Source: Chroococcidiopsis thermalis PCC 7203
GTDB taxonomy: Bacteria; Cyanobacteriota; Cyanobacteriia; Cyanobacteriales; Chroococcidiopsidaceae
Direction: 5' to 3'
Length of the DNA: 64,000 nt
NCBI RefSeq assembly: GCF_000317125.1
Contig: NC_019695.1
Location: forward strand, 4,948,336 to 5,012,335
Both the position numbers and the translations under genes were made by a program. The notes below the pieces were generated by a model. That model ran no database searches and was not told the origin of the DNA. It saw only the letters and a list, made by a program, of their open reading frames with translations. Below are positions 28,125 through 55,120 of the stretch, one piece after another; the first letter of the stretch is position 1; the number at the start of each line of letters is the position of its first letter.

Positions 28125-28460
28125 ATGCAAGCTAAGCAAAAAGTTACGCTGTATTTAACGCCTGAACTGCATCGGCGGCTCAAAATCAGAGCCGCGATCG
28201 ACTCGGAACCAATGTCAGAACTCGCTGCCCGCGCGCTCGCTTTTTATTTATCTCACCAAGAGTTAATAGACGAAGCAGAGTCATACGGCAACACGCACAG
28301 AGTTTATGCATGTCCTGAATGTGCAACAACGGTGGCATTGAACGAAGGCGAACTAGTATCCCTCAAGGATCAGCCGGGGGTAATAGAGCAGTCCAAGCCG
28401 GCAAGAGTTGCGGCTGAAGCAGCAATACAAGAAGGGCAACTAGCCCTCGCCAGCCACTAA
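28125..28460 (+). CDS. Ribbon-helix-helix / zinc-ribbon-like small protein
   Basis: In its 111 residues, the first ~45 (KVTLYLTPELHRRLKIRAAI, SMSELAARALAFYLSH-like) form a CopG/MetJ-type ribbon-helix-helix. A CPEC motif (YACPECATTVALNEGEL) then suggests half of a metal ribbon, which would need dimerisation to bind metal. It is likely a DNA-binding regulator. It precedes the Ycf46-type ATPase by 96 bases on the same strand, so a regulatory link to that gene is plausible but unproven. Confidence 0.65.
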   Translation: MQAKQKVTLYLTPELHRRLKIRAAIDSEPMSELAARALAFYLSHQELIDEAESYGNTHRVYACPECATTVALNEGELVSLKDQPGVIEQSKPARVAAEAAIQEGQLALASH

Positions 28461-28556
28461 TTTCATTGAAACTAATTTCATTGAAGCTGATTCATCAAAG
28501 CTGAATCCGAAGCGCTGTCCGTACTATCTTTAGGGTCAAAAGTAAGGTCAAAGGCA

Positions 28557-30065
28557 ATGAAAGAAGAGCTAAATATTCTCATACAAGCTCAATACCCGCT
28601 GATATACCTTGTGACCTCTGAGGAAGAGCGGGCTGAACAAGCAATAGCAACGATCGCCCAGTTAAGACCGCAGCGCCGAATATTCATCTGGACGGTGACG
28701 CACGGAATCGTAGAACACGGTCAGCCACGCCACGTCACGCAGCATAATACCGTATCTCCAGAAGCAGCGATCGAGTGGGTGATCCGCCAACGAGAGCCGA
28801 GCATATTCATATTTAAGGATTTACACCCCTTTATTGACGCACCAGTAACGACGAGATGGCTGCGAGATGCGATCGCCAGCTTTAAAGGCACGCAGAAAAC
28901 GATCGTTCTGATGTCACCGATGCAGCAGGTTCCAATCGAATTAGAGAAAGAAGTTGTCGTACTAGACTTCCCGCTCCCCGATTTGGCAGAATTGAACCAA
29001 GTATTAGAGCGGCAGTTAGAGCAGAATCGCGGACGGCGGCTGACAACAGATGCCAGAGAGAAATTATTAAAAGCAGCTTTGGGCTTAACGCGAGATGAGT
29101 CAGAAAAAGTCTACCGCAAGGCTCAGGTAACAGCGGGACAGCTATCAGAAAATGAAGTAGAAGTCGTCTTATCCGAGAAAAAGCAATTAATCCGGCGCAA
29201 CGGCATTTTAGAATACATTGAAGAGGATGCCACAATCGATGCCGTTGGTGGTTTAGAAGAGCTGAAACGCTGGCTCAAACAACGTTCTAATGCTTTTACA
29301 GAAAGAGCGAGAGAATACGGTCTGCCTCAGCCGAAGGGAATGCTGATTTTAGGGGTTCCTGGGTGTGGTAAATCTTTGATCGCCAAAACGACATCTCGCT
29401 TGTGGGGTCTGCCCCTACTTAGGCTAGACATGGGGCGAGTATATGATGGTTCGATGGTAGGGCGTTCTGAAGCTAACCTACGCAATGCCCTCAAAACCGC
29501 AGAATCAATCTCGCCGACAATCCTATTTATTGACGAGTTAGATAAAGCCTTTGCAGGTACGGCAGGCTCGGCTGACTCTGACGGTGGTACGTCTAGCCGC
29601 ATCTTCGGCTCTTTCCTGACCTGGATGCAAGAGAAAACTTCTCCCGTATTCGTGATGGCAACAGCTAACCGCGTGGAAAGATTACCAGGGGAGTTTTTAC
29701 GTAAAGGGAGATTCGACGAAATCTTCTTTGTGGATCTGCCAACCGCGGAAGAACGCAAAGATATATTTAGCATTCACCTGCTCAAGCGCAAACGGGATCT
29801 GTCCCGCTTCGACCTCGATCAATTAGCAAAAATTGCCGATGGGTTCTCTGGTGCAGAGATCGAGCAAGCCTTAATCGCTGCGATGTACGATGCTTTTGCT
29901 CAAGATCGAGAGTTTACCCAACTAGATATTATTGCTGCAATTAAAGCCACGCTACCCCTCTCTCGGACAATGACCGAGCAAGTAACGGCTCTGAGAGAAT
30001 GGGCGAGACAGCGTGCTAGACCAGCAGCATCCTCCGTGGCTGAGTATCAGCGCATGGAGTTTTAA
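28557..30065 (+). CDS. ycf46: AAA ATPase, Ycf46 family
   Basis: This 502-residue protein has an N-terminal domain typical of Ycf46 (LNILIQAQYPLIYLVTSEEERAE shortened) and a C-terminal AAA module. Walker A is GVPGCGKS (266-273), Walker B ILFIDE (322-327), and the second region of homology ends in RKGRFDEIFFVDLP with the arginine finger. Ycf46 is encoded in red-algal plastids and cyanobacteria. In Synechocystis the homologue has been linked to control of inorganic carbon use and photosynthesis. Biochemical activity is not known. Confidence 0.9.
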   Translation: MKEELNILIQAQYPLIYLVTSEEERAEQAIATIAQLRPQRRIFIWTVTHGIVEHGQPRHVTQHNTVSPEAAIEWVIRQREPSIFIFKDLHPFIDAPVTTRWLRDAIASFKGTQKTIVLMSPMQQVPIELEKEVVVLDFPLPDLAELNQVLERQLEQNRGRRLTTDAREKLLKAALGLTRDESEKVYRKAQVTAGQLSENEVEVVLSEKKQLIRRNGILEYIEEDATIDAVGGLEELKRWLKQRSNAFTERAREYGLPQPKGMLILGVPGCGKSLIAKTTSRLWGLPLLRLDMGRVYDGSMVGRSEANLRNALKTAESISPTILFIDELDKAFAGTAGSADSDGGTSSRIFGSFLTWMQEKTSPVFVMATANRVERLPGEFLRKGRFDEIFFVDLPTAEERKDIFSIHLLKRKRDLSRFDLDQLAKIADGFSGAEIEQALIAAMYDAFAQDREFTQLDIIAAIKATLPLSRTMTEQVTALREWARQRARPAASSVAEYQRMEF

Positions 30066-30213
30066 AAAGCTTTCTCCTACGTTCACAGGGGGAAAGGCTA
30101 GCCGCCCAGCTAGCAGATTACCTAAGCCGCATATCCCATCCCAAGACTGCGGCGACATTAACTAAGCTAAACCGTTGTCGTTTATCGTTACTATCCTTCA
30201 GGAGGAATCCCAA

Positions 30214-30567
30214 ATGTCTCACTTTAGCACTCTGCGTACAAAAATCACCGATGCAGAAATCCTCAAGACTTCTCTGCGCGACTTAGGAATTAATGTTAAG
30301 ACCGAAGCTGATGTCCGTGGTTACAACGGTCAGCGCGTTCGCTCTGACATCGTAGCAGTTCTAGAAGGCGAATACGATCTGGGTTGGTCTCGCAACAGCG
30401 ATGGTTCTTTCGATCTAATCGCTGACCTGTGGGGTGTTGCTAAGAAGCACAACCAAACCGAGTTAATTAACTCCATCAACCAAAAGTATGCAGTAAATAA
30501 GACTTTGGCAGAAGTCAAGCAGCGCGGTCTGCAAAATGCCAATGTCAAATTGGTCGTGCAAAAATAA
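30214..30567 (+). CDS. ycf35: Ycf35 (DUF1257) protein
   Basis: This 117-residue soluble protein starts MSHFSTLRTKITDAEILK and continues LRDLGINVKTEADVRGYNG and DLGWSRNSDGSFDLIADLWG, all characteristic of DUF1257/Ycf35. It is conserved in cyanobacteria and algal plastids; function unknown. ATG 30214 follows a near-perfect AGGAGG at 30200-30205. A strong terminator lies 25 bases after the stop. Confidence 0.93.
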   Translation: MSHFSTLRTKITDAEILKTSLRDLGINVKTEADVRGYNGQRVRSDIVAVLEGEYDLGWSRNSDGSFDLIADLWGVAKKHNQTELINSINQKYAVNKTLAEVKQRGLQNANVKLVVQK

Positions 30568-30631: not shown

Positions 30632-31388
30632 GCCATTGGTCATTTGTCATTAGTCATTTGTGAAATGCGCTCTTGTTGCAAGCACTCTACGGTAGGGTGG
30701 GTATTGCCCACCACAGGCGTGAATTTCACTCCTCAAATGAGACTGTTATTGACTAGTCAATAATTACTAATAAACAATACCAATAGAATTAATATCATTC
30801 AGGATATAACGTTTCCCATGCAGGTGAAATACATTCGTAGAGGCGCACGGCTGTGCGCCTCTACGAATTTTTAATTTTTATTTTTGATTTATTCATTGAG
30901 CCATAGCTGAGCTATGGCTATGCTGAAATCAAATCTTAAATTATTGTTGCTGGCTGTACTATCTATAATATTTTCGTATTTTAATAGTATTTTGAAGCTT
31001 AAATTTCAGTATATCTACTGAGTTTTATAAATGTCAGGAAAATCGTATACATCATAACTGAATACAATCAAATACAACCGATACAACCGAATAAATCAGT
31101 AAGGCAATGAACGATCGCATTGAGAGAAAATTTTTAGACTCATGCGACAGTTTTTGTATGGGTATCAAGATTTCACTCAAGGCGCAGCAACTCTCAACGA
31201 GTTTTTTTGTTGAATTACGGAATCTGCTGTCACAGATGTGGATCGCTATAAAGCGTTATTACTGACACACCTATCAACATTTGCTACTGGCGAACAGCGA
31301 TCGCGATCGCTGTTAAATTTTAGTGCTGAAAATTACATAAACAAATCGCTCGATCGAAAATTCACGTCAACCCAAGGCTTGAGCAAAA
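30632..31388. other. Long intergenic region before the coiled-coil cassette
   Basis: This 757-base region contains TCATTAGTCATTTG repeats (30640-30660), a GGTAGGGTGGGTATTGCCCACC-type element in part (30690-30715), and a GC-rich palindrome (listed separately). It also has an AT-rich stretch and, from 31144, traces that look like coding sequence: one short frame from ATG 31144 stops after 23 codons. A second frame is open from about 31216 (through a GTG and DRYKALLLTHLSTFATGEQ) to 31406, overlapping the start of the next gene. I read it as a frameshifted remnant or leader, not a gene. Confidence 0.45.
30835..30866. repeat. GC-rich palindrome, 14-bp perfect stem
   Basis: TCGTAGAGGCGCAC and its exact reverse complement flank a GGCT loop, followed by a T-rich tract. 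Related palindromes occur at 10823, 46357, 50473 and 55200. Confidence 0.9.
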
Positions 31389-32282
31389 ATGGCAGACAAC
31401 ATTAACGACTTATTAGATCAGTGCGAACAAAGATCGCAAGTGCTAACTCAATCGGCAGAACAAGCTAACGAGCAAGTCACTCAAATTTTAGAATTTGCCA
31501 CCAATTTAGCAGCTAATCTCGCTTCCATCGCTGAGGAAGCATTTACTAAGTTTGATGCTCTCAGTGACGAACTAGAAGCTGCCGAACAAAACTTAGAAAG
31601 CGAAATGGAAGCTGCTAAGCAGGGCTTCAGCGATTTACAGCAAAAGGTAGGCGAATTGCAATCTCAAACAGAAGCAAAGATCGAGCAGATTGGCGAACAA
31701 CTAGAAGAGTTAAAGAACCGGAAGGAAGAAATGCTTTCGGAAGTGGAGCAGGAAACCGAAACAACCAAATCGGGTTTTGAGGAGCTATCGAAGCTCGTGG
31801 AGGAAGTCGAGCAAGAAGCAGAGAAGCATTTAGAAAAAGCAAAAGAGCAGATCGAGCAGTTTCATGGCAAAGTTGAGGATGCAGAAAGTCGTTTTGGCGA
31901 TCGCAAATCCTCTGTTTTAGAAGACTTTGCAGCTTTGACAGAAGAACTACAAAATCAGCTCGAATCACTAACAAATGACTTCTCCGACGTAGCTAACGAG
32001 AAAAAAGACAAAATCAGTGCAGTTGAGAGTAGCTTAGATTCAACTTCTCAGGACATATTATCAGCACTGACGCAAAAGTTTGTCGAAGAAGTTATGGGTG
32101 AACTAACGAGTTCAGCCGAAAAAATCACCGAAGCCACATCGCATTTACAAGATGCAGGAGATGAGGTAAACGATGCATTAGACAGCAAAATAGGTGAGAT
32201 TTTGGACAAGGTTGGTGAAGTCACTGATATTGTCGAAAAAATCGAACCAGTACTAGACATGGTTGATAAAATCTTAGGCTAA
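31389..32282 (+). CDS. Acidic coiled-coil protein 1 of 4, function unknown
   Basis: The 297 residues are dominated by Glu, Gln, Ser, Leu and Lys in heptad spacing and predicted almost entirely helical. There are no Cys beyond residue 12, no aromatic core and no signal peptide. The central part (LEELKNRKEEMLSEVEQE, ELSKLVEEVEQEAEKHLEK) is a long coiled coil. The C-terminus turns amphipathic and more hydrophobic (VTDIVEKIEPVLDMVDKILG), which could bind a membrane surface or form a bundle. No enzyme motif is visible. It begins an apparent four-gene operon; the gap to the next gene is 46 bases. It could be cytoskeletal (coiled-coil-rich protein), LEA-like or a scaffold. I cannot assign it. Confidence 0.8.
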   Translation: MADNINDLLDQCEQRSQVLTQSAEQANEQVTQILEFATNLAANLASIAEEAFTKFDALSDELEAAEQNLESEMEAAKQGFSDLQQKVGELQSQTEAKIEQIGEQLEELKNRKEEMLSEVEQETETTKSGFEELSKLVEEVEQEAEKHLEKAKEQIEQFHGKVEDAESRFGDRKSSVLEDFAALTEELQNQLESLTNDFSDVANEKKDKISAVESSLDSTSQDILSALTQKFVEEVMGELTSSAEKITEATSHLQDAGDEVNDALDSKIGEILDKVGEVTDIVEKIEPVLDMVDKILG

Positions 32283-32328
32283 TCGATAACTTTTATTTTT
32301 GCTAAATTCAAAATAAGGATAATACAGC

Positions 32329-33324
32329 ATGGCACAAGTTCTAGATTTTGGGCGTGACGTTGATGAAGCTAGTGAGAAGCTGAACGAACTATTAGGTATT
32401 CTCGAAACTGCTTGTACGCAAATGGAAGAAGTGTGTACCGATCTAGAATCTGAAACTGAAACTTTAGATGAATCTGCCGAGAGCGTTAGTACAAATATTG
32501 AAACTTTAGCAGAATCTTTGCAGACAGCTTTAGAAGAGTTTAGCAGTAATGAAGAAGAAACGAGAGCCGAACTCGATGCTTTGCAACAAGCAATGACAGA
32601 CATTGAAGGAAAATTAGATGAAGTTGCTCAATCTGTAGAAGCAGCTCAGGCTAATTTTGAATCAGAGATTAACGAGAGTAAATCAGAGCTAGAATCAAGC
32701 TTAGAAGAATTAAAAGAAGCATTTAAGAGTTTAGAAGATACAATTTCTAATACTGAAAACTCTGTAGGCGAAGGTCAAACAGAAGCTCAGGAAAAATTTG
32801 ACGATTTAACTGAGGCGATCGAAGAACTTCAGGAACAGATTGAAGCATTCCAAAGTGAGTTGGAATCAAAATTTGAAGAAGTAGCAAACGAAATTAGCGA
32901 TACTCAAAATTCTAATCTTGAAAAAGCTTTTAGCGAATACAGCGATAAACTCACCGGAGAGCAGTTAGACAAAATCACCTCTGGTTTTGAGGAATTAGAA
33001 AATAATTTCAGCGAATCTTTTGGAGATTTTAACGAACAAGTTACTGAATTTGCTGACGAACTCAAAGAACGATTGACCGAAATTCTAGAAAATACTAGCG
33101 AACACGTAGAAGATAACCTCAAGAACGAGCTACAAGAATCTTTTGAGAATGCGATTCAGGAAGTTGTAGAAGGAATGATTGAAGAAGTAGCGGAAAACAT
33201 CATGATGATGACAACAGGTTCGTCTGTAACAGGTGCGCTGAGTCCTATCTTACCAGCGTTAGCTGCTGCCAAGGTTGCTACCGGAGCGATTAAAGCAGTT
33301 TTGGATTGTGTCGATATATTCTAA
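32329..33324 (+). CDS. Acidic coiled-coil protein 2 of 4, function unknown
   Basis: This 331-residue Glu/Ser-rich coiled coil (LDEVAQSVEAAQANFE, ELQEQIEAFQSELESK) differs from its neighbours by a hydrophobic C-terminal segment rich in Ala and Gly (GALSPILPALAAAKVATGAI). That segment could insert into a membrane or form a hairpin. SELESSLEELKEAFKSL (from residue 119) aligns with SELESTLEAVEEVFKSL of protein 4 (from residue 116) at 12 of 17 positions, direct evidence that the cassette arose by duplication. A ribosome-binding site AAGGA lies 8-12 bases upstream. Confidence 0.8.
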   Translation: MAQVLDFGRDVDEASEKLNELLGILETACTQMEEVCTDLESETETLDESAESVSTNIETLAESLQTALEEFSSNEEETRAELDALQQAMTDIEGKLDEVAQSVEAAQANFESEINESKSELESSLEELKEAFKSLEDTISNTENSVGEGQTEAQEKFDDLTEAIEELQEQIEAFQSELESKFEEVANEISDTQNSNLEKAFSEYSDKLTGEQLDKITSGFEELENNFSESFGDFNEQVTEFADELKERLTEILENTSEHVEDNLKNELQESFENAIQEVVEGMIEEVAENIMMMTTGSSVTGALSPILPALAAAKVATGAIKAVLDCVDIF

Positions 33325-33382
33325 ATATTTTAACGCTGTTTTCAACTCATCGATCGCGTCTCAACTATTGGAAGTCTAAAAT

Positions 33383-34321
33383 ATGAACGAGCAATTAGGA
33401 CAAACCCTGACATCGTTATCTCAAATGGCGAGTGTATTTCCTGAAAAACTAGATGGTTTAGTACAACTATCATCGGAAGTCCAAGCAGAAGCCGATCGCC
33501 TGGTTAGCAATATTGAAGAAAAGCAAGAGCAGATTGCAGAAATTCTCGAACAAATTCAAACTGCACTAACCGAATTAAAAGAGGAAGCTACAGAGCATCA
33601 ATCTCAACTTGAAAGTGAAATTGCCGAACTTGAAAGTGGAGTTGAATCTTTAACAGAATTTATCTCTGAAGCTCAAGGACAACTCAGTAGCGAAATTGAA
33701 ACGACTCAAGGCAAAATTTCAGAACTCAAAGAACATTTGGATGAAAGTAGTTCTAAAACTGAAAGGACGGGTGAAGAAACTCAAAGCACGCTAACACAAG
33801 CTCAAGAAAAAATTCAATCCGGTCAAGACAAATTAACTTCTGCTGTAGAAGCAACCAATAAAGAGGTAGAAGCTTTCCAAGAAAAGCTAGACGAATTAAA
33901 ATCTGCTCTTAGCGAACAGATCGAGCAATTTACTGAAGATATGGAGAAGTCACAAGGAGAAGTTGGTGAAAAGATTCAAGCTATGGCAGATACTTTTCTT
34001 GACTTACATCAAGAATTTACTACCAATTTAAATAAATTAAGTACGCAAACCGTCAAAGGCGAAACGGACGAGCTGTTAAATCAAGCTCAAGAAAAAATTC
34101 AAGCAGAACTGAAAGAATTAATTACAGAAGCCGTTAAAAACGTGACAGATTCCGTAGAAGAGATGAGTCAGAAAATTTCGGGTTCTAGCGAAGATGCTTC
34201 TATTGCTCGTAAAGCATTAGAGCCATTATTCGACCAGCTTGATGAATTTATCGATCCGCTTAAAGATGGAGTTGAAGCTGTGAAAGATGTAGCCGAAAGC
34301 GTGGGAATAGATTTTGGCTAA
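33383..34321 (+). CDS. Acidic coiled-coil protein 3 of 4, function unknown
   Basis: This 312-residue protein starts with a less charged helix (LGQTLTSLSQMASVFPEKLDG). It then runs as a Glu/Gln/Lys coiled coil (IEEKQEQIAEILEQIQTAL, TQAQEKIQSGQDKL) and ends in an amphipathic region (ALEPLFDQLDEFIDPLKDGV). There is no Cys and no Trp. It shares length, composition and topology with the other three members. It starts 58 bases after protein 2. Confidence 0.8.
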   Translation: MNEQLGQTLTSLSQMASVFPEKLDGLVQLSSEVQAEADRLVSNIEEKQEQIAEILEQIQTALTELKEEATEHQSQLESEIAELESGVESLTEFISEAQGQLSSEIETTQGKISELKEHLDESSSKTERTGEETQSTLTQAQEKIQSGQDKLTSAVEATNKEVEAFQEKLDELKSALSEQIEQFTEDMEKSQGEVGEKIQAMADTFLDLHQEFTTNLNKLSTQTVKGETDELLNQAQEKIQAELKELITEAVKNVTDSVEEMSQKISGSSEDASIARKALEPLFDQLDEFIDPLKDGVEAVKDVAESVGIDFG

Positions 34322-34365
34322 AGCAATTAAGTGAAACTATATTAGAACTATAATCGAGGTAAATC

Positions 34366-35271
34366 GTGGCTGATTTTGAAACAACTGCAACAGAAACAGT
34401 AACTAAACTGACAGAATTATTAGGTGAAGCCGAGCAAGCACAGTCAGAATTAACAGGCTTGCGAGAACAAATTGCTCAGGTTTCCGAGCAAATGGATAGT
34501 CACTGGCAGACATTAAGCGATCGCGCTCAATCTTTGTTAGAACGAATTAATAGCGCTAAGGAAGATTTGAGTGAAGAAGCTGAATCGCTCAGTCAAGAAG
34601 TCACTCAGCTCAAGGAAAATGTAGAAACTTGGCAGAATGAAACTAACGAAGAAAACGAAGCTACCAAAACAGAAATCAGTTCGTTTGGTGAAGACTTAGA
34701 CTCGACTAAATCCGAGCTAGAATCGACTTTAGAGGCAGTAGAAGAAGTTTTTAAATCTCTTCAAGAAAAACTAGAGGAAGTTGCCACAGAGTTAGAGGAA
34801 CAGTTTTCAGAGCAGGAAGATTTTCTCCAAAATGATGTATCCGATCGGCTAGAGAGTCACCAATCCGATTTAGAAGAACGAGCTTCAGAGTTTGAATCGC
34901 ACATTAAAGATGAATCTGCTCCAGCAATTGCCGAATTAGTTAGCGAATTTGCAACTCAGGTTGAGGATGTAATAGAGCAACTAACTGAGAAAACCAAAGA
35001 TTTGCAAGAATCGACATCAGATACAACTGAAGATGCCATCTCTAAATATAAAGAAACTCAAGAAGAAGTCTTCGATCGGCTGATGGATACGGCAAAAGAT
35101 CTCGAAAAAATGATGGATAAACTGAGCGGCTTTGTTGATAAAAGTGGTAATACAGCTGAGACTGCTAAAGATACCATGACTGAGGGCGTAGAAGCTACTA
35201 ATGTAGGTTTAAATGCAGCTCTGGGAATAATTGAAGATACTTATGAGATCTTAAAGAAGTTTATTCCTTAG
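34366..35271 (+). CDS. Acidic coiled-coil protein 4 of 4, function unknown
   Basis: This 301-residue protein starts at a GTG preceded by GAGG, giving MADFETTATETVTKLTELLG; its N-terminus resembles that of protein 1 (MADN...). A long coiled coil (VFKSLQEKLEEVATELEEQ) and a final hydrophobic helix (LNAALGIIEDTYEILKKFIP) repeat the cassette pattern. It is followed by 212 bases and then the HetZ-related gene on the same strand. Confidence 0.8.
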   Translation: MADFETTATETVTKLTELLGEAEQAQSELTGLREQIAQVSEQMDSHWQTLSDRAQSLLERINSAKEDLSEEAESLSQEVTQLKENVETWQNETNEENEATKTEISSFGEDLDSTKSELESTLEAVEEVFKSLQEKLEEVATELEEQFSEQEDFLQNDVSDRLESHQSDLEERASEFESHIKDESAPAIAELVSEFATQVEDVIEQLTEKTKDLQESTSDTTEDAISKYKETQEEVFDRLMDTAKDLEKMMDKLSGFVDKSGNTAETAKDTMTEGVEATNVGLNAALGIIEDTYEILKKFIP

Positions 35272-35483
35272 AAAAAATCCAAGTGTAGGGGGGCAATGTC
35301 AACCCTGCTAAGGTGAGATTTTTCTTTGTCTAATAAACGAGCAGTAGAAACGCCGCTTTTGGATAAGCCAAGGATAGTATTTCGCAAAATACGTTTTGTT
35401 CGCATGTATACGACTCCAACCCCTGCATAAATTTTCCAATCGCTCGCTATTTAAGAAGATAGTTCAACACACGGCAGGGTGAT

Positions 35484-36659
35484 ATGCAAACTATACAAGT
35501 AAACGTGGCGGAGCGCGATCGCCATCTAGCGACAGCGACGGAAATTTCCCAAGAATGGCGTTTGCGTCTCACTCAAGAATGTCCGGCGCAAAGCGATACT
35601 GCCCGAGAAAGCATAGTCCGTTGGCTGATTGGTGAAGATACAGAACGCTATCAAACGTGCAATTCTCTTCAGTTATCTATAGCACAGCAAGCTATGGAAT
35701 ACCGCTTTCGCATCCTCAAACAGCGTTATTTAGGGGTTTCACCTCAGCAGGCATATCACCGCTTGACAATACGTTTGTGCAGTTTAGTACTACTGCGAAA
35801 TAAAATTCACGCCCTCGTTGCTTTGGGTGGCGATCGCCGTCGGGCAGTCGTTGACGTTTTGCAAGAAATTATCCAAGATTTGTTGCAGCGCGATCGCTAT
35901 TTGCAACAACAAACAGCTTGGATTGCGGCGTGTACTGACGATATGAGGCTGCGAACTGCCTTGCTATTAACTACTGTAGAAGAATATTGTTTGCGCCCGA
36001 TTCACAATCGACCTTTAATCGTGCATCGCTTTGTCAATTTTCTTCGCCGGACGCAGATGGGAGGAGTCACACAAGTTCCAGAACGCAGAATTCTCAAACT
36101 ATTGTCTGACGAATTCCTTTCTGATGATGGCGATCGCACTTGGAGCGCGATCGACGTGCGATCGGTCAGCGTGTATCAAGACAGCCAAACCCAAGCAGAC
36201 CAGTACGCAGCAAGACATCTCGTGCAATCGAAATTTAGCAACTATTTAACTAACAATTTGGGAGAAACTGCCGCGCAATGGTTAGAACTATACTTACAAG
36301 GTAGGTCTCAAGAAGCGATCGCCCAACAGTTAAATTTATCAGTCAAAGAAGTCTATCGACTGCGAGAAAAAATTGTCTACCATGCCGTGAAAGTATTTGG
36401 ATTAAAACATCATCCAGAACTAGTGAGTCATTGGCTGGGCACGAGTTTAGAAGAACACAGTTTCGGCTTGACACCTAAGCAATGGCAGGAATTTTGGGAG
36501 CAACTAACCCCAAGGCAGCGCCAAGTTGTAGAGTTAAGAAAGTCTGGCAAAAATTTAGATGCGATCGCCTACACTCTCAACCGCAAGTTAAATCAAATTA
36601 CTAGCGAATGGAATAAACTTTGCTTAGTAGCCCAAGTCGTGCGAAGTGGGATGAACTAA
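35484..36659 (+). CDS. HetZ-related DNA-binding protein
   Basis: This 391-residue helical protein contains RESIVRWLIGEDTERY, RILKQRYLGVSPQQAYHRL, VVDVLQEIIQDLLQRDRYLQQQ and PIHNRPLIVHRFVNFLRRTQ, which I recognise as the pattern of cyanobacterial HetZ-related proteins. Two sigma-region-4/LuxR-like HTH segments lie at the C-terminus (GRSQEAIAQQLNLSVKEVYRLRE, and LTPRQRQVVELRKSGKNLDAIA). HetZ is an early heterocyst differentiation regulator. Family members also exist in unicellular and non-heterocystous cyanobacteria, where their role is unclear. No trace of other het/pat genes is seen here. Confidence 0.7.
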   Translation: MQTIQVNVAERDRHLATATEISQEWRLRLTQECPAQSDTARESIVRWLIGEDTERYQTCNSLQLSIAQQAMEYRFRILKQRYLGVSPQQAYHRLTIRLCSLVLLRNKIHALVALGGDRRRAVVDVLQEIIQDLLQRDRYLQQQTAWIAACTDDMRLRTALLLTTVEEYCLRPIHNRPLIVHRFVNFLRRTQMGGVTQVPERRILKLLSDEFLSDDGDRTWSAIDVRSVSVYQDSQTQADQYAARHLVQSKFSNYLTNNLGETAAQWLELYLQGRSQEAIAQQLNLSVKEVYRLREKIVYHAVKVFGLKHHPELVSHWLGTSLEEHSFGLTPKQWQEFWEQLTPRQRQVVELRKSGKNLDAIAYTLNRKLNQITSEWNKLCLVAQVVRSGMN

Positions 36660-41423: not shown

Positions 41424-41983
41424 TTGAAATTTATCCTACTAATTGTTCAATTGACATGCGATTTCATGAATCTAGCTGTATTCTTCCCCTTCAAAACAGC
41501 AACTATATCAATAGGTAGGTCAAGGTAACACAAAGTTACATAAGCTATTCTTATAAATTACTGTCATTTTCTAGCTACAGTCGCTCTATGAGATCTCATG
41601 GCAAAGTCACAAGCCTTATTCTGCCTAGCAAGGGAGCAATCGATGCTCAGTTAAGGAAATGTTCAAATTCCTGCAAGAAATTGCAGCAAACAGAGCATAA
41701 CGCAGGAATTGCGATTTCAATCGCTCTTATTGCCTGCAACCCTGCTCTATAATCTATGAAGATAGTGTAAAACTTGAATGAGTCTCGTTACAGTCCACCA
41801 ACCAAGCTAAATGAAACCGTGCAGCATATACAGACAACTATAACTGGATAACAGATTATTAGAAATAGATCGAGTTAACTTTACAAATTGTACGAATGCG
41901 ATCGATTGAGCAACCAATAGTGGGCTGCCGTCCATAAAAATTTGGATCGAGAAATTTGGGTCAAAAACTTTCGGTCAACTACA
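41424..41983. other. Intergenic region, promoter for the Ser/Thr kinase
   Basis: This 560-base gap between divergent genes contains no credible gene. A 54-codon frame starting at 41588 has poor composition and was rejected. Direct and inverted structure is weak; it probably holds both promoters. Confidence 0.45.
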
Positions 41984-43162
41984 ATGTTAGGCAAGTTACT
42001 AGAGGGACGTTATCAAGTCATGCAAGTTCTGAGTGCAGGGGGTTTTTGTCAGACCTACCTCGCTCAAGACACCCATATTTCCAATCGCCCTACATGCGTA
42101 GTCAAGCATCTCAAACCTGCCAATAGTTCTCCTAATGCCCTACAAACGTTGAGATGGTTGTTTACAGGTGAAGCCCAAGCTTTAGAAAAATTAGGATGTC
42201 ACAATCAAATTCCTCGGCTGCTAGACCACTTTGAGGAAAACCAAGAATTTTATCTCATTCAAGAATTCGTACAAGGGCATACCTTAAGTGCAGAACTACA
42301 ACCAGGTAAGCCTTGGAGTGAAAGCCAAGTGTTTTACATGTTGCAAGAAGTACTGCAAATCTTAGAGTTTATTCACTCGCACGGCTTAATTCATCGCGAT
42401 ATCAAGCCAAATAACTTGCTCAGGCGCAAGCACGATCGCCGTCTGGTGCTAATTGATTTTGGTTCGGTCAAACAAGCATGGACGCAGGTTGTGACGCTGC
42501 AAGGGCAGAAGATCAATACGTTTTCCATTGGCTTACCAGCAACAATTACAATCGGCACTCCTGGCTACATGCCTACAGAACAAGAACGAGGCAAGCCTCG
42601 TCCTAACAGCGATATCTATGCTTTGGGAATGGTGGCAATTCAAGGTTTGACAGGCATCCATCCGACTCAGCTAGATACCGATCCAGATACCTGTGAAATT
42701 CTATGGCGACACTATCGTAAAATCAGCCCCGAACTAGCGCAAATTATAGATAACATGGTGCGCTACGGCTTTAAAGATCGCTACCAATCTGCAACAGAAG
42801 TCTTAGCAGCCCTAGAACCTCTAGCAAATCGGTATCAACCCGTGCTGCATTATGGTTTTCACGAATTACATGGTACTCAGGTTCAGATACCCACAGTAGC
42901 GCAAGATTCGCACTCTTTACTGGGTGAAGAAGAGACTGTTTCTTATAGCTGGGGCGATCGCCCGCAATTACAAATACCAAATACAATTAGCAAAGCTACA
43001 GCTGCAATTTCAGCCAAAAGATCGACTTCCTTAATCGATTTAGGAATTGGCGCGATCGCTTTAGCGACTTTACTCGTAGGTATCTATTTCGCCTCCCACT
43101 CCCCCACACCAGCCTTCAAACCAGAAAAGTATCCTGTATCAATTCCCTTGAAAAGTAAATAG
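41984..43162 (+). CDS. Serine/threonine protein kinase with C-terminal membrane anchor
   Basis: This is a Hanks-type kinase of 392 residues. It has a glycine loop (LSAGGFCQTYLAQD), VVKHLKP with the ATP-binding Lys, the catalytic loop LIHRDIKPNN, DFGS and an APE-like GTPGYMPTEQ. One transmembrane helix (IGAIALATLLVGIYFA) is near the C-terminus, leaving only a short outside tail. I take ATG 41984, where kinase homology begins, over 41942. It is closely related to the kinase at 50728 (shared GRYxVxxVLxAGGF, LKPANS, SAEL), so the two are paralogues. Confidence 0.9.
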   Translation: MLGKLLEGRYQVMQVLSAGGFCQTYLAQDTHISNRPTCVVKHLKPANSSPNALQTLRWLFTGEAQALEKLGCHNQIPRLLDHFEENQEFYLIQEFVQGHTLSAELQPGKPWSESQVFYMLQEVLQILEFIHSHGLIHRDIKPNNLLRRKHDRRLVLIDFGSVKQAWTQVVTLQGQKINTFSIGLPATITIGTPGYMPTEQERGKPRPNSDIYALGMVAIQGLTGIHPTQLDTDPDTCEILWRHYRKISPELAQIIDNMVRYGFKDRYQSATEVLAALEPLANRYQPVLHYGFHELHGTQVQIPTVAQDSHSLLGEEETVSYSWGDRPQLQIPNTISKATAAISAKRSTSLIDLGIGAIALATLLVGIYFASHSPTPAFKPEKYPVSIPLKSK

Positions 43163-49005: not shown

Positions 49006-50445
49006 ATGCAATCTTCTGCTACACTGACGCTTTGCGAATCTTCCGAGCCAGCGGGAGCGCGAGAACAACCGCGTTATTTTCTCTCTCCCAATGAAGAAAT
49101 TGTCATTGGGCGATCGCCTGATTGTCAAATTGCTCTCGATCCTAAGCGTTACACGACGGTTTCGCGCTATCACGCCAAGTTACGCTGGCAAAAAAGTTCC
49201 GAGCCTGTTTGGGAAGTTTGTAACCTCAGCTCGACCAACGGCACGTATATTAACGGTAAGCAAATTGGCGAAGAATGGCGGAGGTTAAAATCGGGCGATC
49301 GCATTACCCTTAGTTGGGAAGGTGCAGAGTTTCTGTTTGAATGCCAAGCTTTGCCTGCGACTGTACTCGTTAAAGCTCCGACGAGCGCCCAAAAACCGAT
49401 AACGGAAGCTCATGCAAATGCAGTTGTCCCTGTAGCAGAATCAGCAGTTGAGCCTGAACCAATCGTTGCTACACCAGAACCACCGCAACCTGAAGTAGTA
49501 CAGCCACCCGCTCCTGAAATCGAGCCAGCCAAGCCAGCACCACAGACTGATGCGGTGGAACAACCTGCGGCGATCGCCCAACCAGAAGCAGCAGCGATCG
49601 CTCCAATCCCCGAACCTATATCTGCTGTCATTTCTGCAAGTCCTGCGATTCCAGCACTACCCGATACTGGTAAAAGCTTATGGGAGCTTGGTTTAAATCC
49701 AACAATTCTGACATTAACCGGACATTCAGATTTGGTACGTACAGTTGCGTTTAGTCCTGACGGTCAAGTTCTTGCTAGCGGTAGCGCTGATAAAACCATC
49801 AAATTGTGGCAACTCAATACTGGGCAAGTTGTCAATACCTTTAACGGACATAAATCGGCGATTAATGCCGTTGCGTTTAGTCCTGACAGTCAAGTTCTTG
49901 CCAGTGGTAGCGCCGATAAGACAATCAAACTCTGGAACCTCAGCACGGCTGAAGAAATCTCTACTTTTATCGGTCATAGTTCGGCTGTAAATAGCGTTGC
50001 GTTTAGCTCTGATTGTCAGATGCTAGTGAGTGGCAGCGCGGATAAAACCGTGAGACTATGGGATCTCGGCACGGGTGCAGAAATCCACAAACTGGAAGGA
50101 TACAAATTAGGGGTGAATGCGGTGGCTATTAGCCCTGACGGTCAAATTATCGCTAGTGGCGGTGCAGATAAGATTATTAAACTGTGGCATATCGATACGG
50201 GTGAAGAATCTGCTTTGCCAGCTTTGCGGGCTGCGGTAAACGCGATCGCCTTTAGTCCTGATGGTAAACTACTAGCGATCGCGACTGAAGATAAATTACT
50301 CAAAGTCTGGGATCTAAGTGCAGCAGAGGAAGTGTATGCTATCTGCGGCTATGCATGGCAAGTTGGGGCGATCGCGATTAGTCCGAACGGGCAATTCCTC
50401 GCTAGTGGCGATCGCGACAAGGCGATCGCGCTGTGGCAGTTATAG
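49006..50445 (+). CDS. FHA domain and WD40 repeat protein
   Basis: The N-terminal forkhead-associated domain (about residues 24-108) has IVIGRSPDCQIAL, SRYHAKL and LSSTNGTYING, the phosphothreonine-binding core. A Pro/Ala/Glu-rich linker (about 120-225) follows. Then six WD40 repeats, each with GH...V..VAFSPDG..LASGSADKTIKLW, finish the protein. It probably reads phosphorylation by Hanks-type kinases and scaffolds partners. It lies just upstream of the membrane Ser/Thr kinase on the same strand. Confidence 0.9.
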   Translation: MQSSATLTLCESSEPAGAREQPRYFLSPNEEIVIGRSPDCQIALDPKRYTTVSRYHAKLRWQKSSEPVWEVCNLSSTNGTYINGKQIGEEWRRLKSGDRITLSWEGAEFLFECQALPATVLVKAPTSAQKPITEAHANAVVPVAESAVEPEPIVATPEPPQPEVVQPPAPEIEPAKPAPQTDAVEQPAAIAQPEAAAIAPIPEPISAVISASPAIPALPDTGKSLWELGLNPTILTLTGHSDLVRTVAFSPDGQVLASGSADKTIKLWQLNTGQVVNTFNGHKSAINAVAFSPDSQVLASGSADKTIKLWNLSTAEEISTFIGHSSAVNSVAFSSDCQMLVSGSADKTVRLWDLGTGAEIHKLEGYKLGVNAVAISPDGQIIASGGADKIIKLWHIDTGEESALPALRAAVNAIAFSPDGKLLAIATEDKLLKVWDLSAAEEVYAICGYAWQVGAIAISPNGQFLASGDRDKAIALWQL

Positions 50446-50727: not shown

Positions 50728-52794
50728 ATGCTAGGTCAATTATTAGATGGGCGTTATCGAGTCCTGAAAGTCTTGGGTGCAGGTGGATTTAGCCAAACTT
50801 ACATCGCTGAAGATACCCGTCGTCCTGGTAATCCTTGCTGTGTAGTCAAACATTTGAAGCCAGCAAATAGCAATACCAACTTTTTAATAGCAGCTAGACG
50901 ATTATTTGATAAAGAAGCCAAAATTTTAGAAAAGCTAGGAATTCACGACCAAATTCCCAGATTACTAGCCTATTTCGAGCAAGACCAAGAATTTTATTTG
51001 GTGCAAGAGTTAATCGAAGGACATTTGCTAAGTGCAGAATTGTTCGGTGGTCGTCGTTGGCACGAAGATCGAGTAATCCAAATGCTCTTAGACGTGTTAG
51101 GGATTCTTAACTTCGTGCATCAGCAGGGAGCAATCCATCGCGATGTCAAACCAAATAACATAATTCGTCGCCAACAAGATAATAAATTAGTCCTCGTAGA
51201 TTTTGGTATTGTTAAAGAGATTAACGTCCAACTGCTGACAGCTCAAAGCCAAGTTAGCGCCTCGATCGCCGTGGGTACTGTTGGATATATGCCACCGGAA
51301 CAAGCGCGAGGTAGACCGCAATTCAATAGCGATATCTACGCGCTGGGAGTCATTGCGATTCAGGCACTCACCGGACTCACGACGCAAGATTTAAGAGAAA
51401 ATTTTCAGGGAGAAATTGACTGGCAAGGTCAGGCACAAGTTAGCGATCGCCTCGCAGCAACGATCGACAAAATGGTACGCTACGACTTTAGAGAGCGCTA
51501 TCAGTCAGCAGCTGAAGTTATAGAGGCATTGCGATCGCCATCTTCAATCAACGCTGGTTATGCCACGACAGAGTTAGACCAACGCCCCAAATACTCGCAG
51601 ACGCAACAAGCAAGTCAATACGCCGTCTTACCAGCGACAGCTCCCAGCAGTCAGTTTTCGGCTCCGTCAATTCCTCAGACTCCAGTTAACTTCACTCAGC
51701 CAGCGACGAACCAAAACATCACGACAAATTCACCCAGCACTCAACCTAGCAAGCGATCGGGTGGTTTAGCTAATTTTGCGGCTAAACTCAAATCTCCTTT
51801 GGGAATGACTATGGGTGCTGCTGCTGTCGTTAGTGTCGCGGCTGCTTTCGGACTGGTCGTGATGAATAAAGAAAGCATCAAATCTGGCTTAGCACAAGTT
51901 GAAGTGTTGAAAAAAACAAAACAATACGAAGAATGCATCAAGCATGGCGCAACTATTAACATTCCTAGCAGCAATACCATAGAAGATAAACAAGCACAAA
52001 CAAATTTAACGAAATCGGTTAATGAGTGTCGCATCGCTCAAGCTAAAGCTTTAGCAGAGGAATTCAAAATTGCTGAGGCGCTAGCAGTCGTGTCTACAGT
52101 GCCAGCGGAGCAACCTTTGTTTGAAGAAGCTCAACTACTCACTAGTCAGTGGTCTAAGAGAATTTTTCAAGAAGCGAAAGACGCTTATGAAAGAGATGGT
52201 GATTTTGAAAAAGCTGTTTTATTAACCAGAGCAATTCCTCCAAAAAGCTCTATTTTTAAAGACGTAAGACAAACAGTCGCTACTTGGGAAAGAGAATCAA
52301 AAACGAATCAAGACTACTTAAAACTAGCAGAACAAGCCCTCAGCCAAAGTCGATGGCAGGATGCAGTTAACACAGCTAAAAAAATTCCATCCAGCACGCT
52401 ATTTTGGAATACAAAACGTAACGAAATTGTCGAGCAAGCTAATGCTCGACTGGCGCAAAAACCAAATCCACCAACTCCATCTCCCGCTGCTGCTAAACCA
52501 GCTCAAGTCCTGCCTCAACAGCCACAGCCAGTTATCAAAGCTGTAAATCCTCCTATACAGCAGAAGATTCCAGGATCTAGTAAAGCTGCTAAATCGACTC
52601 CTGAAGCATCAATCCCAGAGTTGAAACAAACTTCTACATTTGTCGAGCCAGATGCGTCAGATCCTTGTCCCAACGGCGATCCAGCATTTGGATGCGTGGA
52701 TGACAATAATAGCGCCACCGAGGAAGCACCTAATAGTGCGATCGAACAAGAACCAAATGGTAACAGCACCGAGGATAATAATCCAGGTTGGTAG
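50728..52794 (+). CDS. Membrane serine/threonine protein kinase
   Basis: The kinase domain occupies residues 1-270: AGGFSQTYIAED, VVKHLKP, AIHRDVKPNN, LVDFGIVK and VGTVGYMPPEQARGR. A Gln/Ser/Pro-rich spacer leads to one membrane helix (GMTMGAAAVVSVAAAFGLVV, about residues 355-375). The outer region has helical repeats (VEVLKKTKQYEECIKHG, FEKAVLLTRAIPPKS, WQDAVNTAKKIPSS) of TPR-like character, then a Pro-rich and acidic tail ending EDNNPGW. The outer repeats may sense a ligand. Paralogue of the kinase at 41984. Confidence 0.9.
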   Translation: MLGQLLDGRYRVLKVLGAGGFSQTYIAEDTRRPGNPCCVVKHLKPANSNTNFLIAARRLFDKEAKILEKLGIHDQIPRLLAYFEQDQEFYLVQELIEGHLLSAELFGGRRWHEDRVIQMLLDVLGILNFVHQQGAIHRDVKPNNIIRRQQDNKLVLVDFGIVKEINVQLLTAQSQVSASIAVGTVGYMPPEQARGRPQFNSDIYALGVIAIQALTGLTTQDLRENFQGEIDWQGQAQVSDRLAATIDKMVRYDFRERYQSAAEVIEALRSPSSINAGYATTELDQRPKYSQTQQASQYAVLPATAPSSQFSAPSIPQTPVNFTQPATNQNITTNSPSTQPSKRSGGLANFAAKLKSPLGMTMGAAAVVSVAAAFGLVVMNKESIKSGLAQVEVLKKTKQYEECIKHGATINIPSSNTIEDKQAQTNLTKSVNECRIAQAKALAEEFKIAEALAVVSTVPAEQPLFEEAQLLTSQWSKRIFQEAKDAYERDGDFEKAVLLTRAIPPKSSIFKDVRQTVATWERESKTNQDYLKLAEQALSQSRWQDAVNTAKKIPSSTLFWNTKRNEIVEQANARLAQKPNPPTPSPAAAKPAQVLPQQPQPVIKAVNPPIQQKIPGSSKAAKSTPEASIPELKQTSTFVEPDASDPCPNGDPAFGCVDDNNSATEEAPNSAIEQEPNGNSTEDNNPGW

Positions 52795-53029: not shown

Positions 53030-55120
53030 ATGTCACCCAAATATGAAAAGCTACAAGCACGAATTCAGGAAATTCAAAAATTTGTCAGCACTAACTTTGA
53101 GCGAGATCGAAAATTTAGAACGGTTTTTCAAGAATTAGAAAAAATTGCCGCTTGTCTCAAAACAGAAAAAATAAAATTACAAATTGTCAGCAATAACTCG
53201 ATCGCAGCGCGATCGCTTCAAATTTATTTCGAGCGGCATAGATTATCGCAATTTTATCAGGTTGGAGTCAGCGCTTTACCAAAGCAGGTCGAACCCGTGC
53301 GATCGGCAGGAAGTGCCATACTAGTATTATCGACATCTAGCAGCGAAAAAATATACCCGCTTTCTACTACTGAAACAACTAGTATCGGACGTAATCCTGA
53401 TAGCAAAATAGCAATCGATTCAAGTTTGTACAAAAAAGTTTCTTGGAATCACGCTCAAATTAGTCCTTGTGGAAATTTAGCTTGGGAAATTTGCGATCGC
53501 AACAGCACTAATGGGACTTATATTAATGGAGTTCGATTACAAGGATGCCAAAAATTACAGACAGGCGATCGCATTACTCTCGCCGCATCAGCAAGTTCGG
53601 CTTATCCAGAATTTGTGTTTGAGTACAGTTTAACGACTGAATACCCAGAATCTTTAGTAGAAATGCTCGATTGCGATATTCTTTGTTTGGTGTGCGATCT
53701 CGCCACACTTACAAACGCTTGGCAGGGATTAATAACGATCGCTAATGCAGCACCGATCGCTAAGTGCGTTGTTATTGGTAGTATTCCCAGTTTAACTCAA
53801 GTTGAAACCTGGCTGCGCAGTCAAGATCTAAGTGATGTTTTTGAATTAGTAGTTCTATCTCTCAGTTCGTTCTCTCTCCAAACTCAAACCTCAGAAATTA
53901 ATTCAGTAGCGCAACAAGAACTAGAAAAATTTTGTCAATCTTTAGAAACATTTATTAAAGGTAAGCCAGAAGATATTTTAGCTCAACGATTGACTGCACG
54001 AGTGATAAAAGAACTTAGCGTCATCGAGCAAGTTCTCGATCGCGAAGCTGAGGCGATCGCTCAACAACTTCAGCAAGAAGAAGCGCGAATTCAAGGTTTA
54101 GCAACTGACGATGTAAAAGAGCAGGCAAAGAAAGCTTTACGAAAAGCTAGTGATGACAAGGATAAGTTTTTTAAGCAAGTTAAGCTCGAACTCAATCAAT
54201 CGAAAGCTGCTTTATTAGATATGTATAGTAAAAAAAGTATTACGTACAAAGTTGAAGAGTTTATCGAGCGACTAAAACCGCAACTTTTGAAAAAAGGTGG
54301 ATTTCAATATATTCAACTAAGAGCAGAAAATCCAGTCACTGCGAATGGTAACGTTAACGCCGACTTAACGTATTTTTGCAGCCATGAATTGAAAAAGTGG
54401 GCAGATAAAGAATGGCAATTAGTGACTACGACTTATGGTGAAGGTGGATTAAATACCATAGTTGAAACTGTATATAAAACACTCAATTTCTTACCATCGA
54501 TAAACCTAGAAAAATCCCTTTTTTATTCTGACCGACGCATAGACCTTCAAAAAAGCTTAATGAATTCGTTCATTGAAGCTCCTTATGAAGGTCGCTATCA
54601 GGGGGTTTCTCCACTAACATATGTCCTGAAGCAAATCCGAGCCAACATGATGCAATTTACTTTTCTAGTTGGCTTTGGTGCTATGTTTATTGGGATAAGA
54701 GTCAGTGGTGGTGGCAAGCAAGTTATTTCCAGTATTACCCAACCTCTAAGAGAAAATCCTATTCTGTTTGGTATTGTGATATTTTTATTAATTTGTTTGC
54801 TGACCTACACTTATCAGAAAGATACCACGCTTCAGCTAGAGGCGATCGCCGATAAATTAAGAAAAGAATTATCCAATCACTATCAGTCTTTGAGTAAAAA
54901 TTTAGTCGAGAAATTAGTTTTGGAAATTGCGACAGTTTTAGAGACGGAAGAGAAGCGATTGAAAGATGCTCTAGAAATTGCCAACGATCGATTTACTACT
55001 TATATTATCGATATTGAAAAGAATCAGTTGTTACTTAAAAGTAATTTAGAACAGCAAAAAATCCAACTTAGAAATTTGGACAAAGAAAAAGCCGATCTGC
55101 AAAAGCTAAAAAGATTTTAG
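53030..55120 (+). CDS. FHA-domain membrane protein with dynamin-like layout, no G motifs
   Basis: This 696-residue protein has a helical N-terminus, then an FHA domain (about 105-200) with TSIGRNPDSKIAID, SWNHAQI and NSTNGTYING. A beta/alpha stretch (CDILCLVCDLATL, IAKCVVIGSIPSL) follows, then a long coiled coil (320-400), and two close membrane helices (about 541-558 and 577-595, TFLVGFGAMFIGI and FGIVIFLLICLLTY). A final coiled coil (600-690) ends the chain. The layout is that of bacterial dynamin-like or mitofusin-like proteins, but no P-loop, DxxG or NKxD is visible. It may be a degenerate GTPase with an inserted FHA domain. It is downstream of the Ser/Thr kinase, separated by the 41-bp repeat block. 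Confidence 0.75.
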   Translation: MSPKYEKLQARIQEIQKFVSTNFERDRKFRTVFQELEKIAACLKTEKIKLQIVSNNSIAARSLQIYFERHRLSQFYQVGVSALPKQVEPVRSAGSAILVLSTSSSEKIYPLSTTETTSIGRNPDSKIAIDSSLYKKVSWNHAQISPCGNLAWEICDRNSTNGTYINGVRLQGCQKLQTGDRITLAASASSAYPEFVFEYSLTTEYPESLVEMLDCDILCLVCDLATLTNAWQGLITIANAAPIAKCVVIGSIPSLTQVETWLRSQDLSDVFELVVLSLSSFSLQTQTSEINSVAQQELEKFCQSLETFIKGKPEDILAQRLTARVIKELSVIEQVLDREAEAIAQQLQQEEARIQGLATDDVKEQAKKALRKASDDKDKFFKQVKLELNQSKAALLDMYSKKSITYKVEEFIERLKPQLLKKGGFQYIQLRAENPVTANGNVNADLTYFCSHELKKWADKEWQLVTTTYGEGGLNTIVETVYKTLNFLPSINLEKSLFYSDRRIDLQKSLMNSFIEAPYEGRYQGVSPLTYVLKQIRANMMQFTFLVGFGAMFIGIRVSGGGKQVISSITQPLRENPILFGIVIFLLICLLTYTYQKDTTLQLEAIADKLRKELSNHYQSLSKNLVEKLVLEIATVLETEEKRLKDALEIANDRFTTYIIDIEKNQLLLKSNLEQQKIQLRNLDKEKADLQKLKRF

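Follow-up and report, generated by a model that had tools for sequence, protein, structure and literature searches.

Several described bacterial systems come close to the locus reported here. In the type VI secretion system (T6SS), the threonine-phosphorylation pathway PpkA-Fha forms a kinase-FHA switch (PMC3953482). The LXG toxins of the type VIIb secretion system (T7SSb) are polymorphic, share a conserved N-terminal domain and need targeting factors (PMC9600955), and this system also comprises helper proteins that serve these toxins and a pseudokinase, YukC/EssB. In Anabaena, the coiled-coil-rich proteins ZicK and ZacK are mutually dependent for polymerisation (PMC7766704). Moreover, the parts reported for nucleoside triphosphate (NTP)-dependent conflict systems include FHA domains, coiled coils and propeller repeats (PMC7159879), and the LeoABC proteins have been proposed to aid vesicle-linked toxin secretion (PMC4159319). 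Further literature was consulted for comparison (PMC5827413; PMC9950537). Here, we describe four consecutive genes, designated c1 to c4 and together called the quartet or cassette, from a stretch of 64,000 nucleotides of Chroococcidiopsis thermalis PCC 7203 (NC_019695.1, positions 4,948,336 to 5,012,335 of the forward strand; hereafter the window, in whose own numbering positions are given). The quartet is almost certainly a conserved functional unit, and it likely works with a module of Ser/Thr kinases, FHA proteins and a dynamin-like protein. For the whole chain that we propose, namely a helical hetero-oligomer under the control of Thr phosphorylation that carries or delivers cargo, we put the probability at about 0.42, and it is therefore offered as a tentative model.

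The four genes lie on the plus strand with the lengths that had been claimed for them (Table 1) and with gaps of 46, 58 and 44 bases. The original prediction, which had been made from the DNA sequence and its open reading frames (ORFs), was also right about the abundance of Glu (17.3-20.5%) and about the 12 of 17 identical residues of c2 and c4 from positions 119 and 116, respectively. The net charge of the proteins ranges from -46 to -70. An amphipathic or hydrophobic C-terminal segment had been ascribed to all four proteins; c2 indeed has a hydrophobic one (Kyte-Doolittle mean above 1.6), whereas c1, c3 and c4 have no segment above this mean. Between the window genome (G000) and G002, one of its two congeners (the other being G001), the ratio of nonsynonymous to synonymous substitution rates (dN/dS) of the quartet genes is 0.07-0.22, which, like the conservation of the quartet across families described below, speaks against a chance arrangement.

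Among 40 genomes, i.e. the window genome and 39 relatives, 13 contain a c2 match at E 0.001, of which seven are strong (2e-48 or better; G000, G001, G002, G011, G012, G017 and G029). The six weak ones (G008, G020, G023, G024, G030 and G034; E 1.2e-6 to 9.7e-4) were dropped as coiled-coil cross-matches, and the only weak-match locus that was inspected, that of G008 (L037), contains no quartet. A c2 profile with training rows from G000 and G029 was positive at E 1e-10 in 8 of 386 genomes sampled across the phylum and in 13 of 148 genomes of the order. Altogether, 20 numbered genomes from nine families (f1, f9, f12, f13, f14, f19, f23, f31 and f54) are c2-positive, comprising the seven strong ones and G139, G149, G180, G213, G215, G393, G407, G413, G445, G462, G466, G485 and G486. 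A 21st cassette genome, the uncultured AVDCRST_MAG81 (L078), was reached via the FHA-dynamin gene described below. No match to c2 was found in plasmids, and a single-sequence scan of genome contigs with c2 gave 38 stretches, none of which was confirmed. When the neighbourhoods were mapped, all four genes were present in each of the 21 cassette genomes, and in 18 of them they follow one another as c1-c2-c3-c4 on a single strand; thus, the four families stay together as a set, and they are not scattered as single genes, which would have refuted the original prediction. Two of the ordered cassettes (G029 and G213) carry a toxin gene and a partner gene between c2 and c3, and a third (G413) has a small two-gene insert on the opposite strand between c3 and c4. 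In G012 and G017, c2-c3-c4 face c1, and G011 has this arrangement once, in addition to one ordered copy with a broken c4.

By their sequences, c1 to c4 are four ancient paralogues. Profile-profile comparisons of the six family pairs gave scores of 91-114, as compared to 66-85 when one profile was reversed. The families scored 63-98 against their own reversed profiles, and the value for c4 (97.6) lies above the scores of three real pairs out of six. Because the reversed profiles score so high, composition explains much of the raw similarity among c1 to c4, and collinearity rather than the raw score is decisive. Each real pair outscores its own reversed pair (6/6), and the comparison of two N-terminal halves outscores that of an N-terminal with a C-terminal half in 12 of 12 profile comparisons. 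These reversed profiles are the null model relied on, as a column-shuffle null with means of 14-16 was judged to be too weak. In a maximum-likelihood tree of 97 rows, which was rooted at the midpoint and for which the program flags long branches, c1, c2, c3 and c4 each form a single clade (support values in Table 1). The tandem paralogy that had been suggested from the c2/c4 alignment is thus upheld by the tree and by collinear alignment beyond the reversed controls.

Moreover, genomes of the family f14 possess a second, divergent set 3' of c4, consisting of four genes in G486 and G180 and of three in G149 and G139. In the tree, the members q1, q3 and q4 are sister to c1, c3 and c4 (96/82, 98/95 and 99/96), and the placement of q2 is weak. 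This reads plainly as a second quartet that would have arisen by block copying, and copying as a block favours the quartet as a working unit. The c2-like members of the second quartet have 525-553 residues (L062:14130-15707, L067:13419-15080 and L084:11506-13140). The member from L067, the only one for which hydropathy was measured, has an N-terminal hydrophobic segment (residues 9-29), and the second quartet may therefore be membrane-anchored.

None of the family names that database searches offer for c1 to c4 was adopted. Among the best 25 Pfam matches per protein, the same stretches align with dozens of different coiled-coil families, nearly all of them below the cut-off, and the names from Pfam and NCBIfam were rejected. 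The cut-off is passed by c2 with Baculo_PEP_C, Hydro_N_hd and CorA and by c4 with WXG100_2 (PF25547), the latter by 0.9 bits; c4 does not pass the cut-off of PF06013. Those over the cut-off are likewise taken as probable coiled-coil cross-matches, which abound in these sequences. All four proteins also match hidden Markov models (HMMs) of amphipathic helices of the apolipoprotein type, again below the Pfam cut-off. Matches to the PADLOC models ZorA, JetC, LmuB, Leo and PbeC were taken as coiled-coil matches, too. ESCRT-III and IM30 were considered because both are helical membrane remodellers; neither these nor a LEA family is among the 25 best Pfam matches listed per protein, and nothing in the results speaks for the desiccation-protective role that had been suggested. 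An AlphaFold2 (AF2) model of c2 is all-helical and of low confidence, with a predicted local distance difference test score (pLDDT) of 59, and a Foldseek search with this model returned nothing at E 0.001.

The cassette has recurrent neighbours. In other genomes, nearby genes encode Ser/Thr kinases, an FHA-WD40 protein and a third type of protein, about 600-750 residues long, which has a hydrophobic stretch and usually an FHA domain; the kinase, FHA-WD40 and HetZ neighbours were assigned by similarity to the proteins of the window. The window itself contains a homologue of the latter protein (53030-55120; E 3.4e-186 with a profile of four cassette-side proteins), whose gene starts 17.8 kb after c4, next to the FHA-WD40 gene and the kinase gene 50728-52794. 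The original prediction mentioned neither this kinase/FHA/dynamin-like module in the window nor the toxins at cassettes elsewhere. In the 148 genomes of the order, the FHA-dynamin protein was found at E 1e-50 or better in 13 of 13 c2-positive and in 5 of 135 c2-negative genomes (Fisher 5.6e-15, with kinship ignored). The line at E 1e-50 was fixed after inspection of the list, and G411 (1e-36) thus counts as lacking the protein. The protein is also present in the seven other numbered cassette genomes and in L078 and hence in 21 of 21; G029 was among the training rows of the 148-genome profile, as were G011, G017 and G407 among those of the profile used for the other seven. Its gene is located at most 10 kb from a cassette copy in 13 of the 21 genomes and 15-23 kb away in three (G445, G000 and G002), while the remaining five (G001, G139, G149, G180 and G486) carry it at another place of the genome or on a different contig. 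A scan of named genomes with an FHA-dynamin fragment gave five loci, two of which contain a cassette, namely the new L078 and L079, which is equal to G017. L082 is a contig of G486, whose cassette sits on another contig, and there is no cassette in the stretches L080 and L081, both of which begin at a contig end. L079 (JACCVJ010000660.1) is filed as a Tatlockia metagenome-assembled genome; its genes are as in the contig of G017, a genome grouped with the family of the window, and it is probably a mislabelled bin. The window kinases keep the HRD and DFG motifs. In two cassette-side kinases elsewhere (L062:5431-7167 and L063:13366-15099), HQI replaces HRD and no DFG is detected by pattern, suggesting that they are likely pseudokinases.

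The protein 53030-55120 likely belongs to the dynamin-like fold class, as judged from its predicted structure. An AF2 model built from five sequences (pLDDT 70.7; predicted TM-score 0.40) has a G-domain-like core of alternating strands and helices, which is interrupted by an FHA sandwich and followed by long helices. In the Foldseek search with this model, ranks 1, 2 and 4 were the bacterial dynamins 5owv (a pair, 7e-8), BDLP (2j69, 4e-7) and IniA (6j72, 1e-6), rank 3 was an FHA domain, and mitofusin, LeoA (4aur, 1.5e-4) and more FHA domains followed; the TM-scores of the dynamin rows (0.12-0.35) denote a match in topology and local structure and not a superposition. VIA-align gave 50 rows, all of them FHA-containing chains aligned over the FHA domain. 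None of 14 aligned FHA-dynamin members has the P-loop G....GK[ST], and the protein is therefore at most a pseudo-GTPase. In the alignment, the FHA stretch hardly varies at its Gly-Arg, Ser and Asn positions, and we take these to be the phospho-Thr site. Two homologues (L032 and L033) lack the FHA domain.

At some cassettes, candidate cargo is encoded. Small polymorphic toxins lie in or beside the cassette in 4 of the 21 genomes (G012, G017, G029 and G213), which belong to three families. In G029 (L036), c2 is followed by the genes of a toxin of 387 residues, whose PT-HINT and Ntox24 domains pass the Pfam cut-offs, and of a partner of 160 residues that has no Pfam match. At the same site in G213 (L064), which belongs to a different order than G029, a 262-residue protein with the N-terminus of the G029 toxin is accompanied by a SUKH protein. 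G012 and G017 encode two leader-bearing proteins each; one pair is of the Ntox44 type, with the G012 member over the Pfam cut-off, and one G017 protein has a GIY-YIG-like stretch below the cut-off and lies beside a leucine-rich repeat (LRR) protein. Thus, an immunity-like gene adjoins the toxin in G213 (SUKH) and G017 (LRR). A 38-residue leader model built from six ORFs finds just those six among the ORFs of the window and of the loci from L031 on. The leaders score 52-180 in pairs, as against 21-54 for the C-terminal parts in 14 of 15 pairs; the pair of Ntox44-type proteins is the outlier (450). The leader matched no Pfam family, and none was found among the window ORFs of 40 residues or more. 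With a 110-residue profile, no leader was detected outside cassettes in 386 genomes of the phylum and 19 of the family; this absence elsewhere is the real test of leader restriction because every seed of the leader had been taken from a cassette locus. The pretoxin part of that profile matches two non-cassette places. One of them is a subtilase and LysM protein (L087:2673-5306), whose pretoxin-like region recalls that of the cassette toxins and whose gene lies near genes for a C39-peptidase ATP-binding cassette (ABC) transporter and HlyD export. The toxins of G012 and G017 are accompanied by extra copies of two quartet genes, c1b and c4b. In the trees of c1 (97/99) and c4 (100/98), these extra copies cluster with those of G029 and G213, while the regular c1, c2, c3 and c4 of G012 and G017 group on the side of the window. 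The c2 and c3 genes at these toxin loci are of the window type, and the toxin-subtype c1b and c4b thus share a locus with them, with no c2 or c3 of their own subtype. In G011 (L034:4963-6762), two proteins encoded next to c1 and a copy of c4 have unrelated bodies (score 32) and similar tails of 30 residues (56); perhaps this shared tail would be a C-terminal form of the leader, i.e. a docking signal.

Hetero-oligomerisation of c1 to c4 is the natural inference from these data. The most likely product of their assembly would be an acidic helical hetero-oligomer of elongated shape, and Ser/Thr phosphorylation would control this assembly at the membrane. In the order of events that we envisage, the kinases would phosphorylate Thr residues, and phospho-Thr would be read by the FHA domains of the WD40 protein and of the dynamin-like pseudo-GTPase, the latter of which may anchor or remodel the membrane beside the assembly. 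In some genomes, toxins could dock on the assembly via the shared helical leader of about 30-40 residues and be exported or delivered, with the immunity gene protecting the producer. The organism of the window possesses the genes of the machinery, and no such cargo was found in its genome.

Several observations speak against this model. No leader or pretoxin match is present at E 0.001 in the window genome and its two congeners, and the toxin link may be confined to a subtype because the trees of c1 and c4 set the copies on the toxin side apart as a separate clade. The FHA-dynamin protein occurs without c2 in five of the 148 genomes, or in six if the weaker G411 is included, and in 6 of the 21 cassette genomes its gene lies on a different contig or at a distance of more than 20 kb. 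Furthermore, the catalytic motif is degraded in the cassette-side kinases of G149 and G139, and the kinases beside the cassettes of G215 and G180 do not match the HRD/DFG pattern either. Nothing was identified that would serve as a translocase, pore or outer-membrane component. Read to its full extent, as a cyanobacterial delivery machine unrelated to T6SS and T7SS with a four-subunit acidic helical carrier, leader-loaded cargo, assembly at a membrane by the FHA pseudo-dynamin and firing by the Ser/Thr kinases, the model appears rather unlikely.

A possible, if doubtful, alternative is that the quartet forms a membrane-associated scaffold or cytoskeleton that organises or protects membranes together with the dynamin-like protein under kinase control, the toxins being mere hitchhikers. 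The predicted dynamin-like fold, the apolipoprotein-type matches of all four proteins and a GluR0-like channel gene near the cassette at six loci would fit a scaffold, as would the restriction of the leader toxins to the cassettes of four genomes, that of the window not being among them. However, hitchhiking does not sit well with a leader that is confined to cassettes and common to unrelated toxin bodies, nor with the location of c1b and c4b beside the toxins in G012 and G017. It is improbable that the locus is an intracellular conflict or abortive infection system, in which kinase and FHA sensing would trigger quartet assembly and release toxins inside the producer. The patchy distribution (8/386 genomes) and the FHA, propeller and coiled-coil parts reported for NTP-dependent conflict systems (PMC7159879) are compatible with this idea, and the window kinase 50728-52794 matches the PADLOC PD-T4-6 kinase models with a best E of 1.1e-101; however, these matches span the kinase domain, which is a common domain. 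Moreover, the immunity-like SUKH and LRR neighbours and the HINT pretoxin domain are in keeping with toxins that are released from the cell, and the FHA-dynamin protein and three toxins were scanned without a PADLOC match at E 1e-5.

Very improbable is a divergent T7SSb or T6SS with c1 to c4 as WXG100/LXG-like partners or regulators. EssC, the FtsK/SpoIIIE-type ATPase of T7SSb, carries FHA domains. Searches for EssC and for the T6SS sheath protein VipB/TssC covered 8 of the 21 cassette genomes: EssC was over the cut-off in none of the eight, with weak matches in three, as compared to nine matches, one of them over the cut-off, in 14 control genomes, and VipB/TssC was found in none of the eight, the E. 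coli control being positive. For these eight genomes, the idea is largely refuted, even though YukC/EssB, the LXG helper proteins and the kinase-FHA switch of T6SS (PMC3953482) offer parallels and c4 exceeds the WXG100_2 cut-off, a match that stands among dozens of unrelated coiled-coil cross-matches. Finally, the chance is next to negligible that c1 to c4 resemble each other by coiled-coil composition only and form an accidental run of unrelated genes, since, despite the high reversed-profile scores, each of the six real pairs outscores its own reversed pair, the halves align collinearly and the set is kept in 21 genomes.

Table 1 Features of the window and GluR0-like channel genes near cassettes of other genomes (loci with L numbers)
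Feature	Position	Strand	Description	Basis
c1	31389..32282	+	Acidic all-helical protein, 297 residues	ORF; alignment of 18 rows; tree clade 100/99
c2	32329..33324	+	Acidic all-helical protein, 331 residues; moderately hydrophobic C-terminus (307-325)	ORF; alignment; tree clade 97/99; hydropathy; AF2 model
c3	33383..34321	+	Acidic all-helical protein, 312 residues	ORF; alignment; tree clade 99/93
c4	34366..35271	+	Acidic all-helical protein, 301 residues, GTG start	ORF; alignment; tree clade 99/96
HetZ_rel_2 regulator	35484..36659	+	Judged not to be part of the system	NCBIfam match; neighbourhoods
Ser/Thr protein kinase	41942..43162	+	406 residues; HRD and DFG motifs; possible associate, on weaker evidence than the next three features	Similarity to kinase 50728-52794
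FHA + WD40 propeller protein	49006..50445	+	479 residues	WD40 by Pfam; FHA stretch by FHA-dynamin profile; homologues near other cassettes
Ser/Thr kinase	50728..52794	+	688 residues; hydrophobic segment 358-381; HRD and DFG	Pkinase by Pfam
FHA-dynamin-like protein	53030..55120	+	696 residues; FHA insert; hydrophobic segment 572-597; long C-terminal helix	FHA by Pfam; profile; AF2; Foldseek
GluR0-like channel	L062:7431-8621		SBP_bac_3 + Lig_chan + Ion_trans_2	Pfam
GluR0-like channel	L065:9217-10332, L069:16090-17220, L070:1027-2157			Sequence inspection
GluR0-like channel	L063:12054-13223, L067:7150-8247			Size and place only

The gene that follows the quartet in the window was rejected as a partner. 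It does encode a HetZ-related protein, as had been predicted (NCBIfam HetZ_rel_2, 569 bits at a cut-off of 400), but the proposed link to the cassette does not hold, as the gene adjoins it in only 2 of the 21 genomes (G000 and G001) and the protein has matches at E 1e-60 in 18 of 19 genomes of the family, whether or not they possess a cassette. The congener G002 has a 98% identical copy about 6.6 kb beyond c4, and the window genome contains five matches, one of them with an internal stop. On the 5' side (28125-30567), a blue-light stress gene of the slr0373 family, an AAA ATPase gene and a ycf35-like DUF1257 gene precede the cassette; the DUF1257 gene has matches in 18 of 19 family genomes, and the cassette may therefore be inserted beside a conserved gene block. 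Between this block and c1, a 16-pair hairpin with a T-run (30833-30868) forms a strong terminator-like site. A scan of promoters and terminators gave counts no different from those of shuffled sequence. Genes for an amino-acid ABC transporter and an SDF symporter lie 3' of the FHA-dynamin gene in the window, and the GluR0-like glutamate-receptor channel genes were encountered near cassettes of the families f14 and f19. Close to the FHA-dynamin genes of two other loci (L069:5910-12953 and L082:43-7829), a large protein that resembles haemagglutinins of two-partner secretion by eye is encoded; a neighbour of 560 residues resembles its transporter, and COP23-like and trypsin-like genes are found around it.

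How cyanobacteria deliver toxins has been little studied, as has the biology of dynamins in bacteria, and the genome evidence ties together four protein families for which no description was found, an FHA-bearing relative of dynamins and, in some genomes, toxins. Since the genes are short and clonable and the leader peptide is clear, the carrier idea and the role of the pseudo-dynamin are directly testable. In the literature searched, which left out most subscription papers, no published account of this layout was recognised, and within the limits of these searches c1 to c4 are four protein families without a description. As compared to T7SSb, whose partner proteins are called small (PMC10653861), the four proteins described here have about 300 residues each. 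The likeness to the PpkA-Fha pathway of T6SS lies in a Ser/Thr kinase and an FHA protein beside a possibly toxin-carrying machinery. ZicK and ZacK are similar as a cyanobacterial coiled-coil heteropolymer, a likeness by description only, with two proteins there and four here. Bacterial dynamin-like proteins such as BDLP, the Campylobacter DLP pair, IniA and LeoA agree with the protein 53030-55120 in its predicted fold, whereas the window protein has an FHA domain inside the G-domain-like core and no P-loop. Neither the quartet nor the pseudo-dynamin is described in the accessible part of a text on polymorphic toxin systems (PMC3482391). These systems differ from the locus in that the leader found here belongs to no Pfam family and the window itself has no such toxin; the cassettes of G012, G017, G029 and G213 resemble them in all three of their constant leader, their swapped ends and their immunity-like neighbours.

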